A program made the position numbers and the translations under genes. Of a DNA stretch of 64,000 nucleotides, positions 20,824-29,958 are shown piece by piece. Under the pieces are notes generated by a model, which was given only the letters and a program-made list of their open reading frames with translations, had not been told where the DNA came from and ran no database searches. Each line of letters begins with the position of its first letter. Position 1 is the stretch's first letter. This DNA comes from Maricaulaceae bacterium EIL42A08 (GTDB lineage: Bacteria > Pseudomonadota > Alphaproteobacteria > Caulobacterales > Maricaulaceae). Location: positions 452,527 to 516,526 of the forward strand of contig JAMZNZ010000003.1 of assembly GCA_024178355.1 (NCBI GenBank), in the 5' to 3' direction.

Positions 20824-21630
20824 ATGAAAACCGTTGTGACAGCGCTGGCTCTGGCTAGCCTGGGGGGGGCGATCAGCTGGGCGGCAAGCCCGCCCATCGT
20901 CAATCCAGGTGCGCCTGGGGCTCCATCGCGAACGATTTCGGCTGAAGAATCGCTGGCGCTCAGCGCGACGCAGCACACTGAGGCCGACGTGCAGTTCATG
21001 CAGCACATGATCGTGCACCATAACCAGGCCGTTCAGATGGGCTCGCTCATCGAAGAGCGGACCGATAATCGCTCCGTACGCCTGATCGGTCAGCGCATTT
21101 CCTTAAGCCAGCAGTCTGAAATGGACATGATGACGACCTGGCTGATGGTGCGCGGCGAAGAGGTGGCCGACGAGCACCTGGGCCACGACATGCACGCGAT
21201 GCACGGTGATCATTCCGGGCATGGCGATCATTCTGCGCATGCTGATCACTCGGATCATTCCATGCACAATGACCATTCCGAGCACGCCGATCATTCTGAC
21301 CATGAGGGCCATGACATGGCCGAAATGGACGAGGTTGATCCGCGCGAAATTCCGCTGATGCCGGGCATGCTGTCTGAAGCCCAGATGGAGCGGCTTGAAG
21401 CGGCTGAAGGCGCTGAATTCGACCGCCTATTCCTGGAAGGCATGATCGTCCACCACCAGGGGGCCATCGATATGGTCGAGAGCCTGATGTCCAATCCCGG
21501 TTCGGGCGAAGACCCACAACTGTCTGAATTTCTGTCCCACGTCGTGGCCGATCAGTCGGCTGAAATCCTGCGCATGCGCAATCTTCTGTCCGCCATGGAC
21601 GAAGAGCACGCACACGCCGGTCATCACTAG
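20824..21630 (+). CDS. Exported tandem DUF305 protein with His/Asp-rich linker
   Basis: A 268-residue protein. A signal-like N terminus (MKTVVTALALASLGGAISWA) leads to two DUF305-type halves. The first has D-V-Q-F-M-Q-H-M-I-V-H-H-N-Q-A (~55-70) and the second has F-L-E-G-M-I-V-H-H-Q-G-A (~200-212). Between them lie about 50 residues of repeated H-S-D/H-A-D/D-H units. DUF305 proteins are ferritin-like four-helix bundles often linked to copper handling, so metal binding is likely but unproven. The start at 20824 has a GGGGGAA ribosome site. The LVIVD gene follows 14 bases later. Confidence 0.85.
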   Translation: MKTVVTALALASLGGAISWAASPPIVNPGAPGAPSRTISAEESLALSATQHTEADVQFMQHMIVHHNQAVQMGSLIEERTDNRSVRLIGQRISLSQQSEMDMMTTWLMVRGEEVADEHLGHDMHAMHGDHSGHGDHSAHADHSDHSMHNDHSEHADHSDHEGHDMAEMDEVDPREIPLMPGMLSEAQMERLEAAEGAEFDRLFLEGMIVHHQGAIDMVESLMSNPGSGEDPQLSEFLSHVVADQSAEILRMRNLLSAMDEEHAHAGHH

Positions 21631-21644
21631 GAGGCTGTAACGCC

Positions 21645-23480
21645 ATGAAAACCCGTATCCGTCATCTCCCGATTTTCGCGCTGGGCTGTGCAGCCCTGCT
21701 CGCCAGCACGGCCACGGCTCAGCAGGTCATCGAACCTGATGAACGCACCGAGCTCGGCGCTGGCTTCCTTGATCCCGAAACCGCCGCCTGGAATATGGAG
21801 CGCACAGCCAACATCGCGCCGCCGGAAGGCTTTTTGAACAACGAAGCCATCTTCCGCCCGGCGGCCTTCATGGAAGCCATGCGCGCGGCGCGCGCTGCGG
21901 CTGAAGCCGGTGAAGAGCCGCCAGCCGGTCCGGCTTTCTCGCCGCTTGCGCTGGCTTCGACCGATTTCGCCTTTGATGGCGACCGGATTTACATGGGCAA
22001 TTACCATGGTTTCCTGACCTATGACGTGTCCTCTGGCGAGCCGGAGCACATCGGCACGGTGGTCTGCCCGGGCGGTCAGAATGACGTGTCTGTCTTTGGC
22101 TATCTTCTGTTCATGTCGGTGGAATCCAACCGCGCGCGCATCGACTGCGGCCCGGGCGGTGTTGAAGGCGAAGTCAGCTCTGAGCGCTTCCGCGGCATCC
22201 GCATCTTCGACATTTCCGACATCTCCAACCCGGTTCAGGTCGGTGCTGTCCAGACCTGCCGGGGTTCGCACACCCACACGATTGTGCCCGATCCGTCCGA
22301 TGAAGGCGTGATCTATATCTATAACTCCGGCACGTCCGGCGTTCGCCCGACCGAGGAGCTGGAGATCTGCACGGGGGGGCAGCCCGAAGAGAACGAAGAG
22401 ACCGCGCTCTACTCCATCGACGTGATCAAGGTGCCGCTGGCCGCGCCTGAGCTGTCGGCGATTGTAAACCGACCGCGCATCTTTGGTGACACTGACACCG
22501 GCTCCATCGCCGCGCTTTGGCGCGGTGGCCGGGCTGGTGTTGCGTCTCAGCGCACCGCCCAGACCAACCAGTGCCACGATATCACGGTCTATCCTGAATA
22601 CGGCCTGGCCGCCGGTGCCTGCTCGGGCAATGGCATTCTTCTGGACATTTCCGATCCGGAAAACCCGACCCGCATGGACGACATCTTTGATCCGGACATG
22701 GCCTACTGGCACTCGGCCAACTTCTCCAACGATGCGTCCAAGCTGATCTTCACCGACGAGTGGGGCGGCGGTGTTGGCGCACGGTGTACCGCTGACAGCC
22801 CGTCAAATTGGGGTGCCAACATCATCACCACGCTGGAAGACGGTGAGATCAACGGTCAGGCTTACTTCAAGCTGCCAACCGTCCAGAACGAGACCGAAAA
22901 CTGCGTGGCCCACAATGGCTCGCTGGTTCCGGTCCCGGGCCGTGATATCCTTGCTCAGTCCTGGTACCAGGGCGGCTTGTCCCTGATGGACTTCACCGAC
23001 CCGCAAAACCCGTTCGAAATCGCCTATTTCGACCAGGGCCCGGTTGATGGTGAAACGCTGGGCGTGGCCGGTTACTGGTCGGCCTACTGGCACAATGGCT
23101 ATATCTACGCCTCTGACATCGCCCGCGGCTTCCAGCAGTTCCGCCTGCTGCCGTCCGAGCATCTGTCTGAAGCCGAGATTGCCGCCGCCGAGCAGGTGAT
23201 GTGGGGACTTAACAACCCGCAGACCCAGCAGAAGATCGAGTGGGAAGACACCCCGGCGGTGGCCCAGGCCTATCTCGATCAGCTGCAGCGCGGTGACGCC
23301 ATCGATGCAGATCTGGCCGAGCGCATCAGCTCTGAAATCGAGCGCTGGGATGGTGGCCGTCCGCGCGGTCGCACGATGCGCCGTCTTGCCGGCGATCTGA
23401 CCGAGGCAGCTGGCGAGGCCGAAGGCGCACACGCTGAGCGCATGACGGCGCTGGCCGGCGTGCTGGAGCGTGCCGCCTAA
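21645..23480 (+). CDS. Exported LVIVD-repeat beta-propeller protein
   Basis: A 611-residue protein with a Sec signal ending A-T-A-Q-Q. The body has repeated strands of the LVIVD type (G-I-R-I-F-D-I-S-D-I-S-N-P-V-Q-V; G-I-L-L-D-I-S-D-P-E-N-P-T; L-S-L-M-D-F-T-D-P-Q-N-P), giving a likely beta-propeller. A helical C-terminal tail (~540-611) follows. Several Cys residues could form disulfides. It is cotranscribed with the His-rich DUF305 gene, and a terminator follows. Its role is unknown. Confidence 0.85.
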   Translation: MKTRIRHLPIFALGCAALLASTATAQQVIEPDERTELGAGFLDPETAAWNMERTANIAPPEGFLNNEAIFRPAAFMEAMRAARAAAEAGEEPPAGPAFSPLALASTDFAFDGDRIYMGNYHGFLTYDVSSGEPEHIGTVVCPGGQNDVSVFGYLLFMSVESNRARIDCGPGGVEGEVSSERFRGIRIFDISDISNPVQVGAVQTCRGSHTHTIVPDPSDEGVIYIYNSGTSGVRPTEELEICTGGQPEENEETALYSIDVIKVPLAAPELSAIVNRPRIFGDTDTGSIAALWRGGRAGVASQRTAQTNQCHDITVYPEYGLAAGACSGNGILLDISDPENPTRMDDIFDPDMAYWHSANFSNDASKLIFTDEWGGGVGARCTADSPSNWGANIITTLEDGEINGQAYFKLPTVQNETENCVAHNGSLVPVPGRDILAQSWYQGGLSLMDFTDPQNPFEIAYFDQGPVDGETLGVAGYWSAYWHNGYIYASDIARGFQQFRLLPSEHLSEAEIAAAEQVMWGLNNPQTQQKIEWEDTPAVAQAYLDQLQRGDAIDADLAERISSEIERWDGGRPRGRTMRRLAGDLTEAAGEAEGAHAERMTALAGVLERAA

Positions 23481-23727: not shown

Positions 23728-24615
23728 ATGGAATCAGTCTTCGCTCAGGTCATCCTGCCGCTGGCACTCGCCTTCATCATGCTGACGCTGGGCGTTGGCC
23801 TGACGCCCGGTGACTTCCGCCGCATCTTTGTCCAGCCCAAGGCCTTTCTGGCCGGGGCTTTCCTGCAGTTCATTTCGTTGCCCCTGCTGGCGATCCTGCT
23901 GGTGGCGTTTCTGCCTGCACCGCCGGTGTTGAAGGTGGGCATCGTGCTGCTGGCGGCGTGTCCGGGCGGGACGACGTCCAACCTGCTCACCCATATGGCG
24001 CGCGGGGATGTGGCGCTGTCGATCTCGCTGACGGGGCTGACAAGCTTGTTGTCAGTGGTCACCGTGCCGATCGTGCTGACGATCGCCCTGTCGCTCTTCA
24101 TGGGTCCCGACGCGCCTGAAGTGGGGCTCGTCACCACCGGGGCCATGATCTTTGCGCTCACCGTCATTCCGGTGGGGCTCGGCATGGGACTGCGCGCTGT
24201 CGCCCCCAAAGTGGCGATGGCGCTGGAGAAGCACTCGCGCTGGCTTTCCGCGGCGGTCTTCGTGGCGGTAGTGGCACTGACGGTCATGGCTGATGGTCTT
24301 GCGGAAACCGCGCGCCGCTTTGCCGAGGCCGGGATTTACGCGCTGGCGTTGAACCTGGCGGCGATGGTGGTGGCGTTTGCTGTCTCCAGCCTGCTGGCGC
24401 TGAAGATGAAACAACGCATCGCCCTGACGCTGGAGTGCGGACTTCAGAACGCGACGCTCGCCATCGTGGTGGCGGGCGCGATGCTGGGCGATATCCACTA
24501 TGCCACCGCAGCCGCCGTCTACGGCCTGATGATGTTTGCCACAGCCGGGGTTTTCATCCTGTGGGCCCGCCGCTGGTCAGCCGCGGCCAGCCGTGCGCGG
24601 CGTATGTCCGCCTAA
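23728..24615 (+). CDS. BASS-family sodium-dependent transporter
   Basis: A 295-residue protein with about ten hydrophobic helices, of the bile acid:sodium symporter family. Conserved blocks include L-G-V-G-L-T-P-G-D-F near the N terminus, A-C-P-G-G-T-T-S-N-L-L-T (~78-89), which is the ion-binding crossing region, and E-C-G-L-Q-N-A-T-L-A (~238-247). Bacterial members import organic anions with sodium; the substrate is unknown. The start is set at the ATG at 23728. Its stop overlaps the convergent rluD stop (CTAA). Confidence 0.88.
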   Translation: MESVFAQVILPLALAFIMLTLGVGLTPGDFRRIFVQPKAFLAGAFLQFISLPLLAILLVAFLPAPPVLKVGIVLLAACPGGTTSNLLTHMARGDVALSISLTGLTSLLSVVTVPIVLTIALSLFMGPDAPEVGLVTTGAMIFALTVIPVGLGMGLRAVAPKVAMALEKHSRWLSAAVFVAVVALTVMADGLAETARRFAEAGIYALALNLAAMVVAFAVSSLLALKMKQRIALTLECGLQNATLAIVVAGAMLGDIHYATAAAVYGLMMFATAGVFILWARRWSAAASRARRMSA

Positions 24616-25628
24616 AGCCGCTCTAAAAACCCGATCAGGCGCTGCATGTCTTTTGGCGGCTCGGTTTCAAAGCGCAGGCGTTCGCCGGTCACCGGGTGGT
24701 CAAAGCCCAGGATGGCCGCATGCAGGGCCTGGCGGCGGAAGTCTTTAAAGTCCTTGCCGCTATCAAGCTTTGCCAGGGGTGCGGACCGCCCGCGGCCATA
24801 GAGCGGATCACCCAGGAGCGGACAGCCCAGATGGGCCATATGGATGCGGATCTGGTGGGTGCGCCCGGTTTCAAGCCGGCACTCCACAAGGCTGGCCAAC
24901 GGTGTGCCCACCGACTTGCCTGGTTCCTGACCAAAGGTTTTGAGCGTCTCGTAATTGGTAACCGCGATCTTGCCAGCGGTGCTGTGCGGATCATCGATCA
25001 CGGCGAATTTCTTGCGGTCATAGCTGGAGCGGCCAAGCCGTGTCTCCAGCCGATCTGCGCGCGGCTTCGGCGCGCCGCGCACACAGGCGAGATACGCCCG
25101 CTCCACATCGTGTTTGGCAAAATACGCACCCAGCCCCTGGTGCGCGCGGTCGGACTTGGCGACCACCATCACGCCGGAGGTGTCCTTGTCGAGGCGGTGG
25201 ACGATACCGGGCCGCTGCACCCCGCCAATCCCCGACAGACTGCCAGCGCAGTGGTGGAGCAGGGCATTGACCAGCGTGCCGGTCCAGTTGCCCGCGGCCG
25301 GGTGGACGGTCATGCCGGCCGCCTTGTTGATGACGATCAGATCGTCATCCTCAAACAGGATGTCCAGCGGGATGTCTTCAGCACGCGGGGTGGCCGGTTC
25401 AGGCTCTGGCACTTTCAGCTCATAGAGCGCGCCTTCCTTCACCTTGGCGGATGGATCGGTCAGCACGTCGCCGTCCACGCACAGCGCGCCAGCCTCCACC
25501 AGCGCCTTGCAGCGTGAGCGCGACAAGTCCTCAAAGACCTGCGTCATCCAGCGGTCGAGCCGCTCGCCTGAAGCATCAGGGCGGGCCTGGCGAATGTCGG
25601 CCGAGAGTTCCGGGCTGGAGTCAGACAC
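24612..25628 (-). CDS. rluD: Ribosomal large subunit pseudouridine synthase, RluD type
   Basis: A 338-residue enzyme converting specific uridines in 23S rRNA to pseudouridine. An S4 RNA-binding domain (~20-80: DRWMTQVFEDLSRSRCKALVEAG) precedes the RluA-type catalytic domain. The motif G-I-V-H-R-L-D-K-D-T-S-G (~141-152) contains the catalytic Asp, and G-R-T-H-Q-I-R-I-H-M-A-H is the second signature. Length and layout fit RluD (positions 1911/1915/1917), though RluC cannot be excluded without alignment. Confidence 0.88.
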   Translation of the reverse strand: MSDSSPELSADIRQARPDASGERLDRWMTQVFEDLSRSRCKALVEAGALCVDGDVLTDPSAKVKEGALYELKVPEPEPATPRAEDIPLDILFEDDDLIVINKAAGMTVHPAAGNWTGTLVNALLHHCAGSLSGIGGVQRPGIVHRLDKDTSGVMVVAKSDRAHQGLGAYFAKHDVERAYLACVRGAPKPRADRLETRLGRSSYDRKKFAVIDDPHSTAGKIAVTNYETLKTFGQEPGKSVGTPLASLVECRLETGRTHQIRIHMAHLGCPLLGDPLYGRGRSAPLAKLDSGKDFKDFRRQALHAAILGFDHPVTGERLRFETEPPKDMQRLIGFLERL

Positions 25629-25706: not shown

Positions 25707-25746
25707 GCGTCAAATACCCGTCATCGCTTCGTCAGGGAAGCGTCAT
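25707..25746 (+). promoter_or_regulatory. Four-repeat Pho-box-like array
   Basis: Four heptamers recur at exact 11-base spacing: GCGTCAA (25707), CCGTCAT (25718), TCGTCAG (25729) and GCGTCAT (25740). Heptamers of the CTGTCAT type with four-base spacers are the known PhoB operator, so this looks like two adjacent Pho boxes. They lie 72-112 bases upstream of the TonB receptor start. The match rests on motif and spacing. Confidence 0.7.
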
Positions 25747-25818
25747 CATGAGCGGGTATCGGCGAGCTACCCGCAGGTCAGACCACTGGCTTGCTGTCTT
25801 ATCAAGAGGAAACTCCCC

Positions 25819-28113
25819 ATGCGCCTGAAAGCCCATCTCCTCGCTTGCGCTGCGCTGACCGCTGTGTCCACGCCTGCAATCGCTCAAACCGAAGCGGCAA
25901 CGCCGGCCACCACCGACGTCATCATCGTGACGACCCAGAAGCGCGAACAGTCGCTGGCCGACGTGCCGATCAACCTGACAGCCTTCAACAGCCAGCGCCT
26001 CTCTGAGCTGGGTATCGAGCAGTTTGATGACCTGTCTGACTTCGTGCCGGGCCTGGAAGTCCAGGAGCAATCGCCGAACAATCCCGGATTTGTGATCCGC
26101 GGCATCACCTCTGACGACGGTGCAGCCACCGGCGAAGCCCGCGTGGCGGTGTTCCAGGACGGCGTGTCCATCTCTCGCGCGCGCTCGGCCTATGTGGAAC
26201 TGTTTGACATCGAGCGCGTCGAGGTTGCCAAAGGCCCGCAGGCGACGCTGTTTGGTCGCGGCGCGCTGATTGGCGGCATCAACGTCATCCAGAACAAGGC
26301 CCAGATCGACGAGCAGGGCGGCTCAGCGGAAATCAGCGTGGGCGATTACAACCGCTTTGAGCTGCGCGGCCACTACAACATGCCGATCACGGATACCGTG
26401 GCCCTTCGCTTTGCCGGTGTGCACAAGCAGCGCGACGGCTATGTGGAGAATGTTCTCGGTGGTGAAGCCATGAACGGCGTCGAGCTGTCGGCTTACCGTG
26501 TTTCCGGGCGCTGGGCCCCGAGCGATGCGCTGACCGTTGACGTGATCGCCAACTACCAGACCGATACGCCTGAAGGCGGTACCAGCTTTAAGTCCGGCGC
26601 GATTCTTCCGGCCCCTGGTGGGTCTCTTGATCCGTGGGAGCCAGCCGCGCTGAACACCTTTGGCGGGTTTGAAGGCGGAGCGCCTCTTGGCATCGACCGC
26701 CAGGTTTATGGCGTGACCATCCTGACGGACTACATCATCAATGACGCTTGGTCGCTGAGCTCCATCTCCGGCTGGCGCGGCTTTGAAAGCGTTGAAATCT
26801 TTGATCCCGATGGCTTCGGTGCCGAATTGCTGGTGGTGGCTGAAGATGCCTCTGGCCGCCAATGGAGCCAGGAATTCCGGTTCAACTATGACGCAGGCGG
26901 TCCAGTGACCGGCTTCTTCGGTGGATCATATTTCTACGAAAGCGGCTCGCAGCGTATTCCGCTGGCTACCAATGAAGTCGTGGCCCAGGCCTTCATCTTC
27001 GGGCTCGACCCGGCAACGGCTCCGACCTTCTCGCTCGGGTTCTTCCAGGCGACCGGCCAGATCCTGCCGCTGAACACCTTCTATCTTGAAGAGACGGCAA
27101 ACCGGGGTGAAACCACCGCGCTCGACCTGTTCGGAGACGTGTCCTATGCGGTCAATGATCGCCTGAGCCTCACGGCCGGCCTGCGCTGGACTCGGGAAGA
27201 GAAAGAGGCCAGCCTTTATGGTGGCAACCTGAATGGTGTGAACAATATCTCCTTCACGCCGACTCTCTTCCTGCCTGCCACGCCCAATAATGGCTCACCG
27301 ATCAGCTCGGGCACGCGCGAGTTTGATGACTTCACCTGGCGCCTGGCTGCCCAGTATGATGTATCCGACACCATCAATGCGTGGGTCAGCTATGCTCGCG
27401 GTCGTCGTCCTGATGTGATCAGCTTTGACTCCACCGATCCGAACTTCTTCGTCGAAGTCCCCGCTGAACTGGTTGATAGCTATGAAATCGGGGCCTTCTG
27501 GACTTATGACAGCACTACACTGCAGGGTTCGGTCTTCTACTCAGAATACCAGAACTTCCAGACCGGTCGTTTTGAACCCAATAATGCAGTCTTCATTACC
27601 GACAATGCCGGTCAGGCGACCCAGTATGGCGTCGAGCTGGAGCTGAACCACCGCTTCAACGAGATGACCAGCCTGTTTGCGTCCTACGGCTATAATTTTT
27701 CGGAGTTTGATGACACTGACGAAAACGGCAATCCGCAGGAGTTCGCAGGCAACACCTTCCGCCTGTCGCCGGACCACGCTGTGTCGGTGGGTCTTCTCAC
27801 CGAGTTCGATCTGCCCATCGGTCGCCTGTCGATCATCCCGACCTGGACCTGGCAGTCGGAAGTCTTCTTTGACAACGACAATGACCTGACCGACGCGGTC
27901 CAGGATGAAACCCAGACCGATTATGGCATTGTCGACCTTCGCGTGCGCCTCGATGCGGCTGATGATCGCTTCTACATGGTCGCCTTTGTCGAAAACCTGC
28001 TGGATGAAGAGTTTATCATCGATGCAGGCAATACCGGTGATGCCTTCGGTATCCCGACCTTTATCGCTGGCTCACCGCGCATGGTGGGGCTGCGGGTCGG
28101 CACCGAATTCTAA
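25819..28113 (+). CDS. TonB-dependent outer-membrane receptor
   Basis: A 764-residue receptor. After a Sec signal (…TPAIAQ) comes a TonB-box-like V-I-I-V-T-T-Q-K-R-E-Q (~35-45). The plug domain (~50-160) has D-V-P-I-N-L-T-A-F and R-V-E-V-A-K-G-P-Q-A-T-L-F-G-R-G. A 22-strand barrel follows and ends in R-V-G-T-E-F with the terminal Phe. It imports a large substrate using TonB energy. The Pho-box-like array and the downstream PhoD suggest a phosphorus-containing ligand, which is inference. A strong AAGAGGAAA ribosome site precedes the ATG. Confidence 0.93.
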   Translation: MRLKAHLLACAALTAVSTPAIAQTEAATPATTDVIIVTTQKREQSLADVPINLTAFNSQRLSELGIEQFDDLSDFVPGLEVQEQSPNNPGFVIRGITSDDGAATGEARVAVFQDGVSISRARSAYVELFDIERVEVAKGPQATLFGRGALIGGINVIQNKAQIDEQGGSAEISVGDYNRFELRGHYNMPITDTVALRFAGVHKQRDGYVENVLGGEAMNGVELSAYRVSGRWAPSDALTVDVIANYQTDTPEGGTSFKSGAILPAPGGSLDPWEPAALNTFGGFEGGAPLGIDRQVYGVTILTDYIINDAWSLSSISGWRGFESVEIFDPDGFGAELLVVAEDASGRQWSQEFRFNYDAGGPVTGFFGGSYFYESGSQRIPLATNEVVAQAFIFGLDPATAPTFSLGFFQATGQILPLNTFYLEETANRGETTALDLFGDVSYAVNDRLSLTAGLRWTREEKEASLYGGNLNGVNNISFTPTLFLPATPNNGSPISSGTREFDDFTWRLAAQYDVSDTINAWVSYARGRRPDVISFDSTDPNFFVEVPAELVDSYEIGAFWTYDSTTLQGSVFYSEYQNFQTGRFEPNNAVFITDNAGQATQYGVELELNHRFNEMTSLFASYGYNFSEFDDTDENGNPQEFAGNTFRLSPDHAVSVGLLTEFDLPIGRLSIIPTWTWQSEVFFDNDNDLTDAVQDETQTDYGIVDLRVRLDAADDRFYMVAFVENLLDEEFIIDAGNTGDAFGIPTFIAGSPRMVGLRVGTEF

Positions 28114-28142
28114 ACCGTTTCGTCCGGGGGGACGGGGCAGTG

Positions 28143-28185
28143 GCCGACGCCGGATCGAGGGGACCGGCGTCGGCTGCGCGTTTTT
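28143..28185 (+). terminator. Intrinsic terminator between the TonB receptor and phoD
   Basis: A perfect 11-bp stem (28143-28153 with 28164-28174) is followed after seven bases by TTTTT. It separates two genes that otherwise look like a functional pair. Confidence 0.75.
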
Positions 28186-28254: not shown

Positions 28255-29958
28255 ATGCAAAACGAGATGAAGCTGACACGGCGCGCTGCGCTTCTGGCTG
28301 GTGTGGGGGCCACGGCGGCGCTGGGCGCGTGTTCTGAGCCGAGCTTTGCGCCCCTGGGTCAGCCTGACGGGCCGTTCAAGCACGGGGTGGCCAGCGGTGA
28401 CCCTGACCAGACCAGCGTCATGCTGTGGACCGCCGTTACCGGAGATGAGGGCGCTCCGGTCACGGTGGAGCTGGCCGCTGATGAAGCGTTTGAAGACTTC
28501 ATGTATGAGGCCGAGGCGGGCCCCGCCGGTCCGCCCACAAATGGCGCAACGCCTTACAAGATCCTGATCGAAGGGCTGCAGCCGGCCCAGCGGATTTATT
28601 ACCGCTTCCGCTATCGGGAAATGGACTCTCAGGTTGGCACCACGACCACGCTGCCCGATGGCGCGGTGGATGAGTTCCGCATCGCGGCCTTCTCCTGCTC
28701 CAACTACCCGGCTGGCTTCTTTAATTCATACCGACACGCCGCTGAGCGTGGGGATGTCGATCTGGCGGTGCATCTGGGCGATTATCTTTATGAGTATGCG
28801 GCTGACGGTTATGCCTCTGAGGACGCTGAGCGGCTGTCGCGGGTTGTCGATCCGGCCCACGAGATCGTGACCTATGACGACTATGCGCGCCGCCATGCGC
28901 AGTATTCGTCCGATCCCGACCTGCAGGCGCTGAAAGCTGCCGTGCCGATGCTGCTGATCTGGGATGATCACGAGACAGCCAACAACGCTACGCGCGATGG
29001 CGCGGAAAATCATAACGAAGGTGAGGGCGACTGGATCACCCGCCGCGACGAGGCTTTGCGCGCCTGGCAGGCGTGGACCCCGACGCGCGAGCGCACGCCC
29101 ATGCATGAGCGCTGGGGCAGCCTGGATATTGGTGATCTGGCGCGCCTGATCTTCATCGAGACACGCCTGACGGCGCGCTCTGAAGAAATCCTGCTTGATC
29201 CCTTCCCGGTCGATCCGAGCACCGCAGATCCTGAGGATCCGGAAAACCGGCGCATTGTGGCCGAGTGGCTGGAGGCGACCGCGGGCGCTGAAGACCGCAC
29301 CCTGCTGGGGCCTGAACAGCTTGCCTTTGTCGAAGCTGCGCTGGGTGAAAGCGTCGCCAATGGCCAGCCGTGGCGCATCTTTGCCAACCAGGTGATTATG
29401 GGCCGCGTGCCGGCACCGAATTATCCCAAAGTCATGCCTTTCTGGCTGCGCTGGGCGGTGCAGAGCTCTGACCCGCTGGCGTGGAGCTATATCCAGCGCT
29501 TTGCCTTTGGCACGCCATTCAATCTGGATGCCTGGGACGGCTACCCGGCTGAGCGCGAGCGCCTGTTCCAGGCTGCGCGCGGCGCCAATGCCGACTTCAT
29601 CACCCTGACCGGTGATACCCACAACGCCTGGGCCATCGACCTGAAGACCGATGAGGGCACGCGTGTGGGGACCGAGTTTGGCGTCACTTCGGTCAGCTCT
29701 CCCTCGCGCTTTGAACGGCTGGAGCTGCCCGGTGTCGACTTTGGCGTCTACACCGAAGAGGCCGCCCCGGATGTCATGCGCCACAACGCCTATGACCGGG
29801 GCTATCTGCACCTGACGCTCACGCGCGATGAGGCGCGCGCTGAATTGATGGTGGTGGATACCTGTAAGAGCCGGAACTTCAACGCCTATCCAGACAGTGT
29901 CTGGCGTGTGCGCCCGGCTTCAGGTGGCGCGGTGCCCCAGGCCGAGCGCATCTCCTAA
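28255..29958 (+). CDS. phoD: PhoD-family alkaline phosphatase/phosphodiesterase with Tat signal
   Basis: A 567-residue enzyme releasing phosphate from phosphoesters outside the cytoplasm. The N terminus L-T-R-R-A-A-L-L-A-G-V is a twin-arginine signal ending in an A-C lipobox-like site. Metal-site motifs are visible: S-C-S-N-Y near 146, H-L-G-D-Y-L-Y-E-Y, W-D-D-H-E-T-A-N-N, and G-D-T-H-N-A-W toward the C terminus. The start at 28255 follows GGGGAGGAC. It lies behind the TonB receptor with a terminator between, so it may depend on read-through or an unseen promoter. Confidence 0.9.
   Translation: MQNEMKLTRRAALLAGVGATAALGACSEPSFAPLGQPDGPFKHGVASGDPDQTSVMLWTAVTGDEGAPVTVELAADEAFEDFMYEAEAGPAGPPTNGATPYKILIEGLQPAQRIYYRFRYREMDSQVGTTTTLPDGAVDEFRIAAFSCSNYPAGFFNSYRHAAERGDVDLAVHLGDYLYEYAADGYASEDAERLSRVVDPAHEIVTYDDYARRHAQYSSDPDLQALKAAVPMLLIWDDHETANNATRDGAENHNEGEGDWITRRDEALRAWQAWTPTRERTPMHERWGSLDIGDLARLIFIETRLTARSEEILLDPFPVDPSTADPEDPENRRIVAEWLEATAGAEDRTLLGPEQLAFVEAALGESVANGQPWRIFANQVIMGRVPAPNYPKVMPFWLRWAVQSSDPLAWSYIQRFAFGTPFNLDAWDGYPAERERLFQAARGANADFITLTGDTHNAWAIDLKTDEGTRVGTEFGVTSVSSPSRFERLELPGVDFGVYTEEAAPDVMRHNAYDRGYLHLTLTRDEARAELMVVDTCKSRNFNAYPDSVWRVRPASGGAVPQAERIS

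Follow-up and report, generated by a model that had tools for sequence, protein, structure and literature searches.

The usual default annotation of a TonB-dependent receptor is that of an iron-siderophore receptor. The locus described here raises the question whether such a receptor is under phosphate control, and which ligand it then imports. In the original prediction, four Pho-box-like repeats ahead of a TonB receptor gene and phoD were proposed to mediate induction by phosphate starvation, pointing to a phosphorus-containing ligand rather than iron. A conserved phosphate operator gives this receptor group a testable alternative role, the scavenging of organic phosphorus. We analyzed the array and its surroundings in the window, i.e., the whole stretch of 64 kb, in the remainder of the genome and in related genomes.

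Repeat array upstream of the receptor gene

The array (25707-25746, + strand) lies in a gap of 190 bp that separates a divergent pseudouridine-synthase gene (- strand) from the TonB-dependent receptor gene (+ strand). It consists of the heptamers GCGTCAA (25707-25713), CCGTCAT (25718-25724), TCGTCAG (25729-25735) and GCGTCAT (25740-25746), separated by the spacers ATAC, CGCT and GGAA. The GTCA cores at 25709, 25720, 25731 and 25742 confirm the exact 11-base steps that had been predicted, and the predicted distance to the receptor start was also correct, with 72 bases between 25746 and the ATG at 25819. With four units at a step of 11, the array has the form of a PHO box, i.e., 11-nt direct repeats of seven conserved and four variable positions. 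When compared with the heptamer CTGTCAT, the GTCA core is present in all four units and the preceding base is C instead of T in all four, so that each unit reads CGTCA, as opposed to the TGTCA of E. coli.

To what extent such a pattern can arise by chance was computed from the window's own GTCA frequency, for the core and step as found and thus post hoc. For the gap of 190 bp, both strands included, 1.7e-7 arrays are expected; the figure rises to 5.6e-5 for 64 kb and to 2.6e-3 for the whole genome. Elsewhere on the + strand of the window, no 4-mer occurs four times at any constant step of 8-14. A pattern search identified the array as the only four-unit array with zero mismatches in the 2.99-Mb genome. 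Allowing up to three mismatches gave 28 matches, against 15 for the reversed control; a site at C5:10868 deviates from the four-unit pattern at one position and the pst-operon site at three.

PhoB and the pst operators

A PhoB protein is encoded in the genome. The candidate at C3:58339-59013 scores 358.7 bits against TIGR02154 (cut-off 296.2) and is the only one of 44 matches to pass; seven more near-full-length matches all fall below the PhoB cut-off. Its gene is the last of an operon with the order pstC-pstA-pstB-phoU-phoB, which is preceded by a gene for a PhoR-like kinase (265.8 bits, below the PhoR cut-off of 334.2). A PstS match was counted in support alongside PhoB.

Upstream of the genome's own pstC we found GTTA-N7-GTCG-N7-GTCA-N7-GTGA, again with 11-bp steps. 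For the sequences upstream of pstC, summed over 29 of the 30 loci, the four-unit score was 328 at step 11, versus 258-301 at the other steps between 5 and 19. The array thus resembles the pst operators of both the genome and its relatives.

A unit matrix was built from 21 of the 30 pst promoters; these training sites, one of which is the genome's own pst site, were chosen by their fit to GTCA and the 11-bp step, and the nine pst loci without a usable site were omitted. Scoring with this Pho-box matrix upheld the original assignment, since over the whole window and both strands the array ranked first with 20.8, the next score being 11.8. A score of 20.8 was not reached by any of 2000 Markov sequences, each 190 bases long. 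The genome's own pstC site scored 37.6 and the pstS site 13.4. The array scores below pstC because it has four CGTCA units and its spacers contain less A than those of the pst promoters. The preference of the matrix for A-rich spacers is also apparent from a receptor upstream region of the same genome (L133/L188) and from the array-less genome G077, which score 20.9 and 22.8, respectively, without GTCA cores. Because of this bias, we relied instead on core, step and position of the -10 element.

Architecture and conservation of the probable promoter

A -10-like hexamer, TATCGG (25757-25762, +), is found 10 bp after the last heptamer, and AAGAGGAAA at 25804-25812 (+) is, as judged from the sequence, the likely ribosome-binding site. 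The spacing between array and -10 element is that of E. coli phoA, where PhoB stands in for the -35 element.

Conservation in the family was analyzed for 31 loci, the window and 30 others, and an array was called present if at least 11 of the 16 core letters matched. L004, L005, L006 and L008 duplicate L108, L095, L112 and L096, so that each pair entered as a single locus; the family conservation counts exclude L007 and L009-L012. Of the 31 loci, 30 have the array ahead of the receptor gene, and in three it is perfect (16/16). In all 30 arrays the last GTCA is perfect and a TA occurs exactly 11 nt past it, at the position of the -10-like hexamer, while TA starts at only about 2% of the positions in the family upstream regions. 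The distance from the last repeat to the -10 element, which should be fixed in a PHO-box promoter, is thus the same in 30/30. The summed step score over the 31 loci was 417 at step 11 and 276-303 elsewhere. The GTCA cores have a mean information content of 1.5 bits, versus 0.5 in the upstream and 0.3 in the downstream flank (28 of the 30 rows).

The single family exception, genome G077 (L109:4965-9295), has a receptor homologue accompanied by a divergent ECF sigma factor/FecR pair. At this receptor locus there is no GTCA array and no phoD alongside; one phoD is located elsewhere in G077. The locus appears to have undergone a change of regulation and serves as a natural negative control.

The footprint extends to other families of the order. 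For 20 loci, hand-picked for spread from 74 genomes with a match, the step score was 231 at step 11 versus 171-189 at other steps, TA was found at +11 in 13, and seven scored above 15.2, the highest Markov score of the pst matrix; in several of these loci no array was present. An earlier, overlapping set of 18 other-family loci gave a weaker step signal (186 versus 163-173). Within the genome itself, the array's receptor is the only one among the loci of 24 TonB-barrel matches with more than 13 of 16 core letters, although promoters of long receptors may fall outside the flank. The array looks like a genuine, evolutionarily conserved phosphate-shortage switch, and it is very probably the operator of a PhoB-activated promoter. 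This part of the original interpretation is supported by the architecture, the cross-genus footprint, the pst promoters, the cognate PhoB and the neighboring phoD; the part that placed the ligand as phosphorus rather than iron is less firm, as discussed below.

Other Pho-type sites in the genome

By itself, GTCA-N7-GTCA is too frequent to be of use (84 matches versus 36 in the reversed control). The signature GTCA-N7-GTCA-N11-TA occurs at four places in the genome and twice in the reversed control, which is not clearly above control. Three of the four places precede genes for outer-membrane barrels or phosphoesterases.

At C3:130596 (L201:3097-3146, -), a Pho-type array followed by TA at an identical distance is located upstream of an outer-membrane barrel gene (L209:652-4026, -) that we take to be Oar-like; it matches PF25183 and CarboxypepD_reg, with PF00593 below its cut-off. 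The Pho-type site at C1:1045928 (L208:5429-5456, -) lies just before a calcineurin-like phosphoesterase gene, with a terminator-like hairpin, recognized by eye, in between; the gene next after the phosphoesterase encodes a siderophore-type TonB receptor. The site at C5:10868 (L023:2867-2911) has three units, and its signature TA is part of the third repeat. CATAAT is found 10 bp past its last heptamer, followed by a hairpin and T run about 100 nt on. The next gene (LprI/DUF1176-like) starts about 390 bp downstream and no clear gene lies ahead of the hairpin; the site could possibly drive a phosphate-responsive small RNA. Similar DNA was absent from the 58 other family genomes searched (1/59, own only).

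The receptor, PhoD and the intergenic hairpin

The receptor (25819-28113, +; 764 aa) has a TonB plug (PF07715, 60.4 bits, cut-off 23.9) and barrel (PF00593, 108.6 bits, cut-off 27). A structure model with a mean pLDDT of 85.6 was closest to FyuA among solved folds (Z 39.4, rmsd 2.0, 617 residues aligned, 21% identity). By both sequence and fold, the nearest solved relatives are siderophore/colicin receptors such as FyuA, Cir, FoxA and FhuA, at identities of about 20% or less. The top-ranking folds are generic TonB receptors, mostly for siderophores, and include BtuB and PqqU. Since the latter two have the same fold with non-iron ligands, the fold decides no ligand, and naming the ligand by fold comparison was dropped. 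The receptor did not reach the cut-off of the siderophore-receptor model TIGR01783 (129.8 versus 223.5 bits), and its promoter had no match above shuffles to four iron-box consensus patterns.

The downstream gene (28255-29958, +) encodes a PhoD-type alkaline phosphatase/phosphodiesterase of 567 aa. It scores 298.4 bits against PF09423 (cut-off 27) and aligns to 9uya and 2yeq; its score for the equivalog NF058638 is 207.8 bits, below the cut-off of 1000. Its N-terminus is twin-arginine/lipobox-like, and PhoD is probably a secreted or periplasmic lipoprotein.

Between receptor and phoD, a GC-rich hairpin followed by TTTTT (28140-28185, +) is a candidate terminator or attenuator, although it was not picked up by a consensus terminator scan. 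The whole gap has a folding energy z-score of -3.1 relative to shuffled controls. Among 31 receptor-phoD gaps (the window, 29 family loci and L007, with L010 and L012 set aside because no gap was found there), 23 have a T-rich stretch whose preceding 45 nt fold with an energy of -25 kcal/mol or lower; the shuffle control applies to the window only. Of the remaining gaps, six have no T-rich stretch and two have weaker folds. The hairpin letters differ among relatives (most of L095-L124) though a comparable fold is present.

The prediction that the array stands ahead of PhoD is therefore right for the gene order, whereas simple co-transcription of receptor and phoD was not accepted, given the strong hairpin and T run in between. 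Because the hairpin separates the two genes, PhoD is probably made at a lower level by read-through, and the hairpin may set the receptor:PhoD ratio. A separate Pho promoter for phoD was not found in the window (two-unit score -4.4). In five of eight loci of genus g9, Pho-like units with GTCG or ATCA cores and a correctly placed TA precede phoD, which there seems to have a Pho-like promoter of its own; seven of these eight loci were assessed by reading the sequences and G066 by score.

Organization of the receptor-phoD module

The divergent neighbor (24612-25628, -; PF00849, S4), a pseudouridine synthase that we take to be RluD-like, marks a conserved site. The order pseudouridine synthase, receptor, phoD is found in 29 of 30 family loci and recurs in four genomes of family f3 and one of f4 (G311, G256, G248, G164, G320). 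The culturable relative Marinicauda pacifica (L006) is among the carriers of the module. Further upstream in the window are a His-rich DUF305 gene (20830-21630), CopM-like and below the NCBIfam cut-off, and a gene for a long protein (21645-23480) with a sub-threshold choice-of-anchor-B match; the two are possibly copper related.

The distribution of the receptor was determined in 119 family genomes (E up to 1e-100, at most eight candidates scored per genome) and in 299 sampled genomes of the order (E up to 1e-90, at most three per genome). It was found in at least 31 of the former, and relatives occur in at least 100 of the latter, in part of which the operator was examined. PhoD relatives are present in 109 of the 119 family genomes, so receptor and PhoD do not strictly co-occur. 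We inspected 20 genomes below the receptor threshold (E up to 1e-100), hand-picked for spread. In 10 of these (L210-L215, L218-L220, L227) the synthase gene directly adjoins phoD, which indicates that a single site has acquired or lost the receptor as a cassette; in G002 (L222), just a 114-aa frame lies between the two genes. Five receptor-less genomes (G003, G023, G046, G056, G111) have Pho-like units and TA before phoD, where TA was rewarded in site choice and the count has no null. In G013, also receptor-less, 14 letters of window 25731-25744 are kept before phoD, without the TA. Less expected in this system are the modularity of the receptor and the conservation of the hairpin. Since phoD naturally occurs with and without an adjacent receptor gene, relatives could be compared directly in order to find the ligand.

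Proposed mechanism and alternative explanations

We propose that the array consists of two Pho boxes in tandem and acts as the operator of a PhoB-activated promoter of the sigma-70 type. When phosphate is scarce, phosphorylated PhoB would bind head to tail on the four 11-bp direct repeats. The weak TATCGG element would serve as -10 without a -35 box and, since the last heptamer takes the place of that box, PhoB would recruit RNA polymerase, with a predicted transcription start about 7 nt past 25762. The receptor would thus be induced and, by transcripts that read through the intercistronic hairpin, PhoD to a lesser extent. An organic phosphorus compound would enter through the receptor and be hydrolyzed by PhoD, after which PstSCAB would take up the phosphate.

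If the repeats were a functionless chance pattern, as short cores and a step and core picked post hoc in the original prediction might suggest, one would not expect 30 of the 31 family loci to retain the array and a -10 element at a constant distance from it. With only 1.7e-7 arrays expected per gap and a cross-genus footprint that speaks strongly against it, the probability of this explanation is negligible. Binding of the repeats by another response regulator of the OmpR family has somewhat more in its favor: head-to-tail repeat binding is common to the family, the genome encodes the seven near-full-length matches below the PhoB cut-off, and the four units have CGTCA, not TGTCA. Yet the same step and GTCA-like cores are found in the genome's own pst site and in the pst promoters of its relatives, the partner gene is phoD, and CGTCA halves occur among E. 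coli PhoB sites in the list of one report, e.g., phnC and rbsK (PMC3465305). We consider a regulator other than PhoB very unlikely.

PhoB control could also be historically that of phoD, with the receptor as a passenger inserted between operator and phoD. The direct contact of synthase gene and phoD in half of the receptor-less relatives agrees with this, as do the Pho-like units and TA before phoD at some receptor-less loci. On the other hand, 9 of 18 other-family receptor upstream regions exceed the Markov maximum, albeit with the biased matrix, and phoD is within the 1.5-kb flank in only one of these 18 loci. Together with the three-gene order in the f3 genomes and one f4 genome, the other-family scores make receptor loss as likely as late gain, and we regard the passenger scenario as improbable. 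A less remote alternative is that PhoB controls the receptor but the cargo is iron, in a siderophore or another metal chelate, since cells short of phosphate would need more iron, e.g., for an Fe-dependent PhoD. The closest solved relatives, FyuA first, are siderophore/colicin receptors, and for Synechocystis a direct PhoB-iron link is described and PhoD is termed Fe-dependent in one paper (PMC11126600). Because of this published link, we still infer, rather than observe, that the ligand is not iron. Against iron stand the unmatched siderophore model and iron-box patterns, the non-iron ligands of BtuB and PqqU, and the partner gene, which is phoD and no iron gene. Iron import is therefore rated as rather unlikely. 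A phosphorus-bearing ligand agrees with the operator and the phoD partner, as originally proposed, and we lean toward it over iron, with the siderophore/colicin folds as a reservation.

A more specific form of the phosphorus reading is put forward tentatively, as a possibility that falls short of probable. The receptor and PhoD could constitute a dedicated importer and processing enzyme for phosphodiesters, such as a lipid head group, a teichoic-type polymer or a nucleic-acid fragment, under one PhoB operator. It would be an alphaproteobacterial, SusD-free counterpart of the Flavobacterium Pus systems, present or absent as a modular cassette between synthase gene and phoD. Where the receptor is missing, phoD would take over the operator, and the hairpin would set the receptor:PhoD ratio.

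Comparison with known systems

Searches of an open-licence library listed no paper on the receptor-phoD module. In E. coli and other bacteria, the PHO box is described as 11-nt direct repeat units, seven positions conserved and four less so, arranged head to tail with a GTCA core (PMC4415409, PMC3465305), an organization shared by the array. The array differs by having CGTCA in all four units, two tandem boxes and less A-rich spacers.

The outer-membrane transporter beside a phosphodiesterase gene has a parallel in Flavobacterium PusCD, SusC/SusD transporters that are reported to be induced by phosphate depletion and co-located with phosphodiesterase genes (PMC8115612). Those are of the SusC/SusD type and from Bacteroidetes, whereas the window has a single TonB receptor in an alphaproteobacterium. 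Next to this receptor there is no SusD-type lipoprotein, the neighbors being the pseudouridine synthase and PhoD.

Closer in phylogeny is the related alphaproteobacterium Caulobacter crescentus, where the genes induced by PhoB include, besides the pst operon, those for several TonB-dependent receptors, for phosphatases and for a phosphodiesterase; the section on the PhoB regulon does not name the receptor or operator of the window (PMC11208175). The Caulobacter receptor CC0171, tied to phosphate-starved stalks, is reported as constitutive (PMC2996285). PhoB-controlled TonB receptors that occur together with phosphatases are thus already known from Caulobacter, and the receptor described here is a well-supported addition to them.
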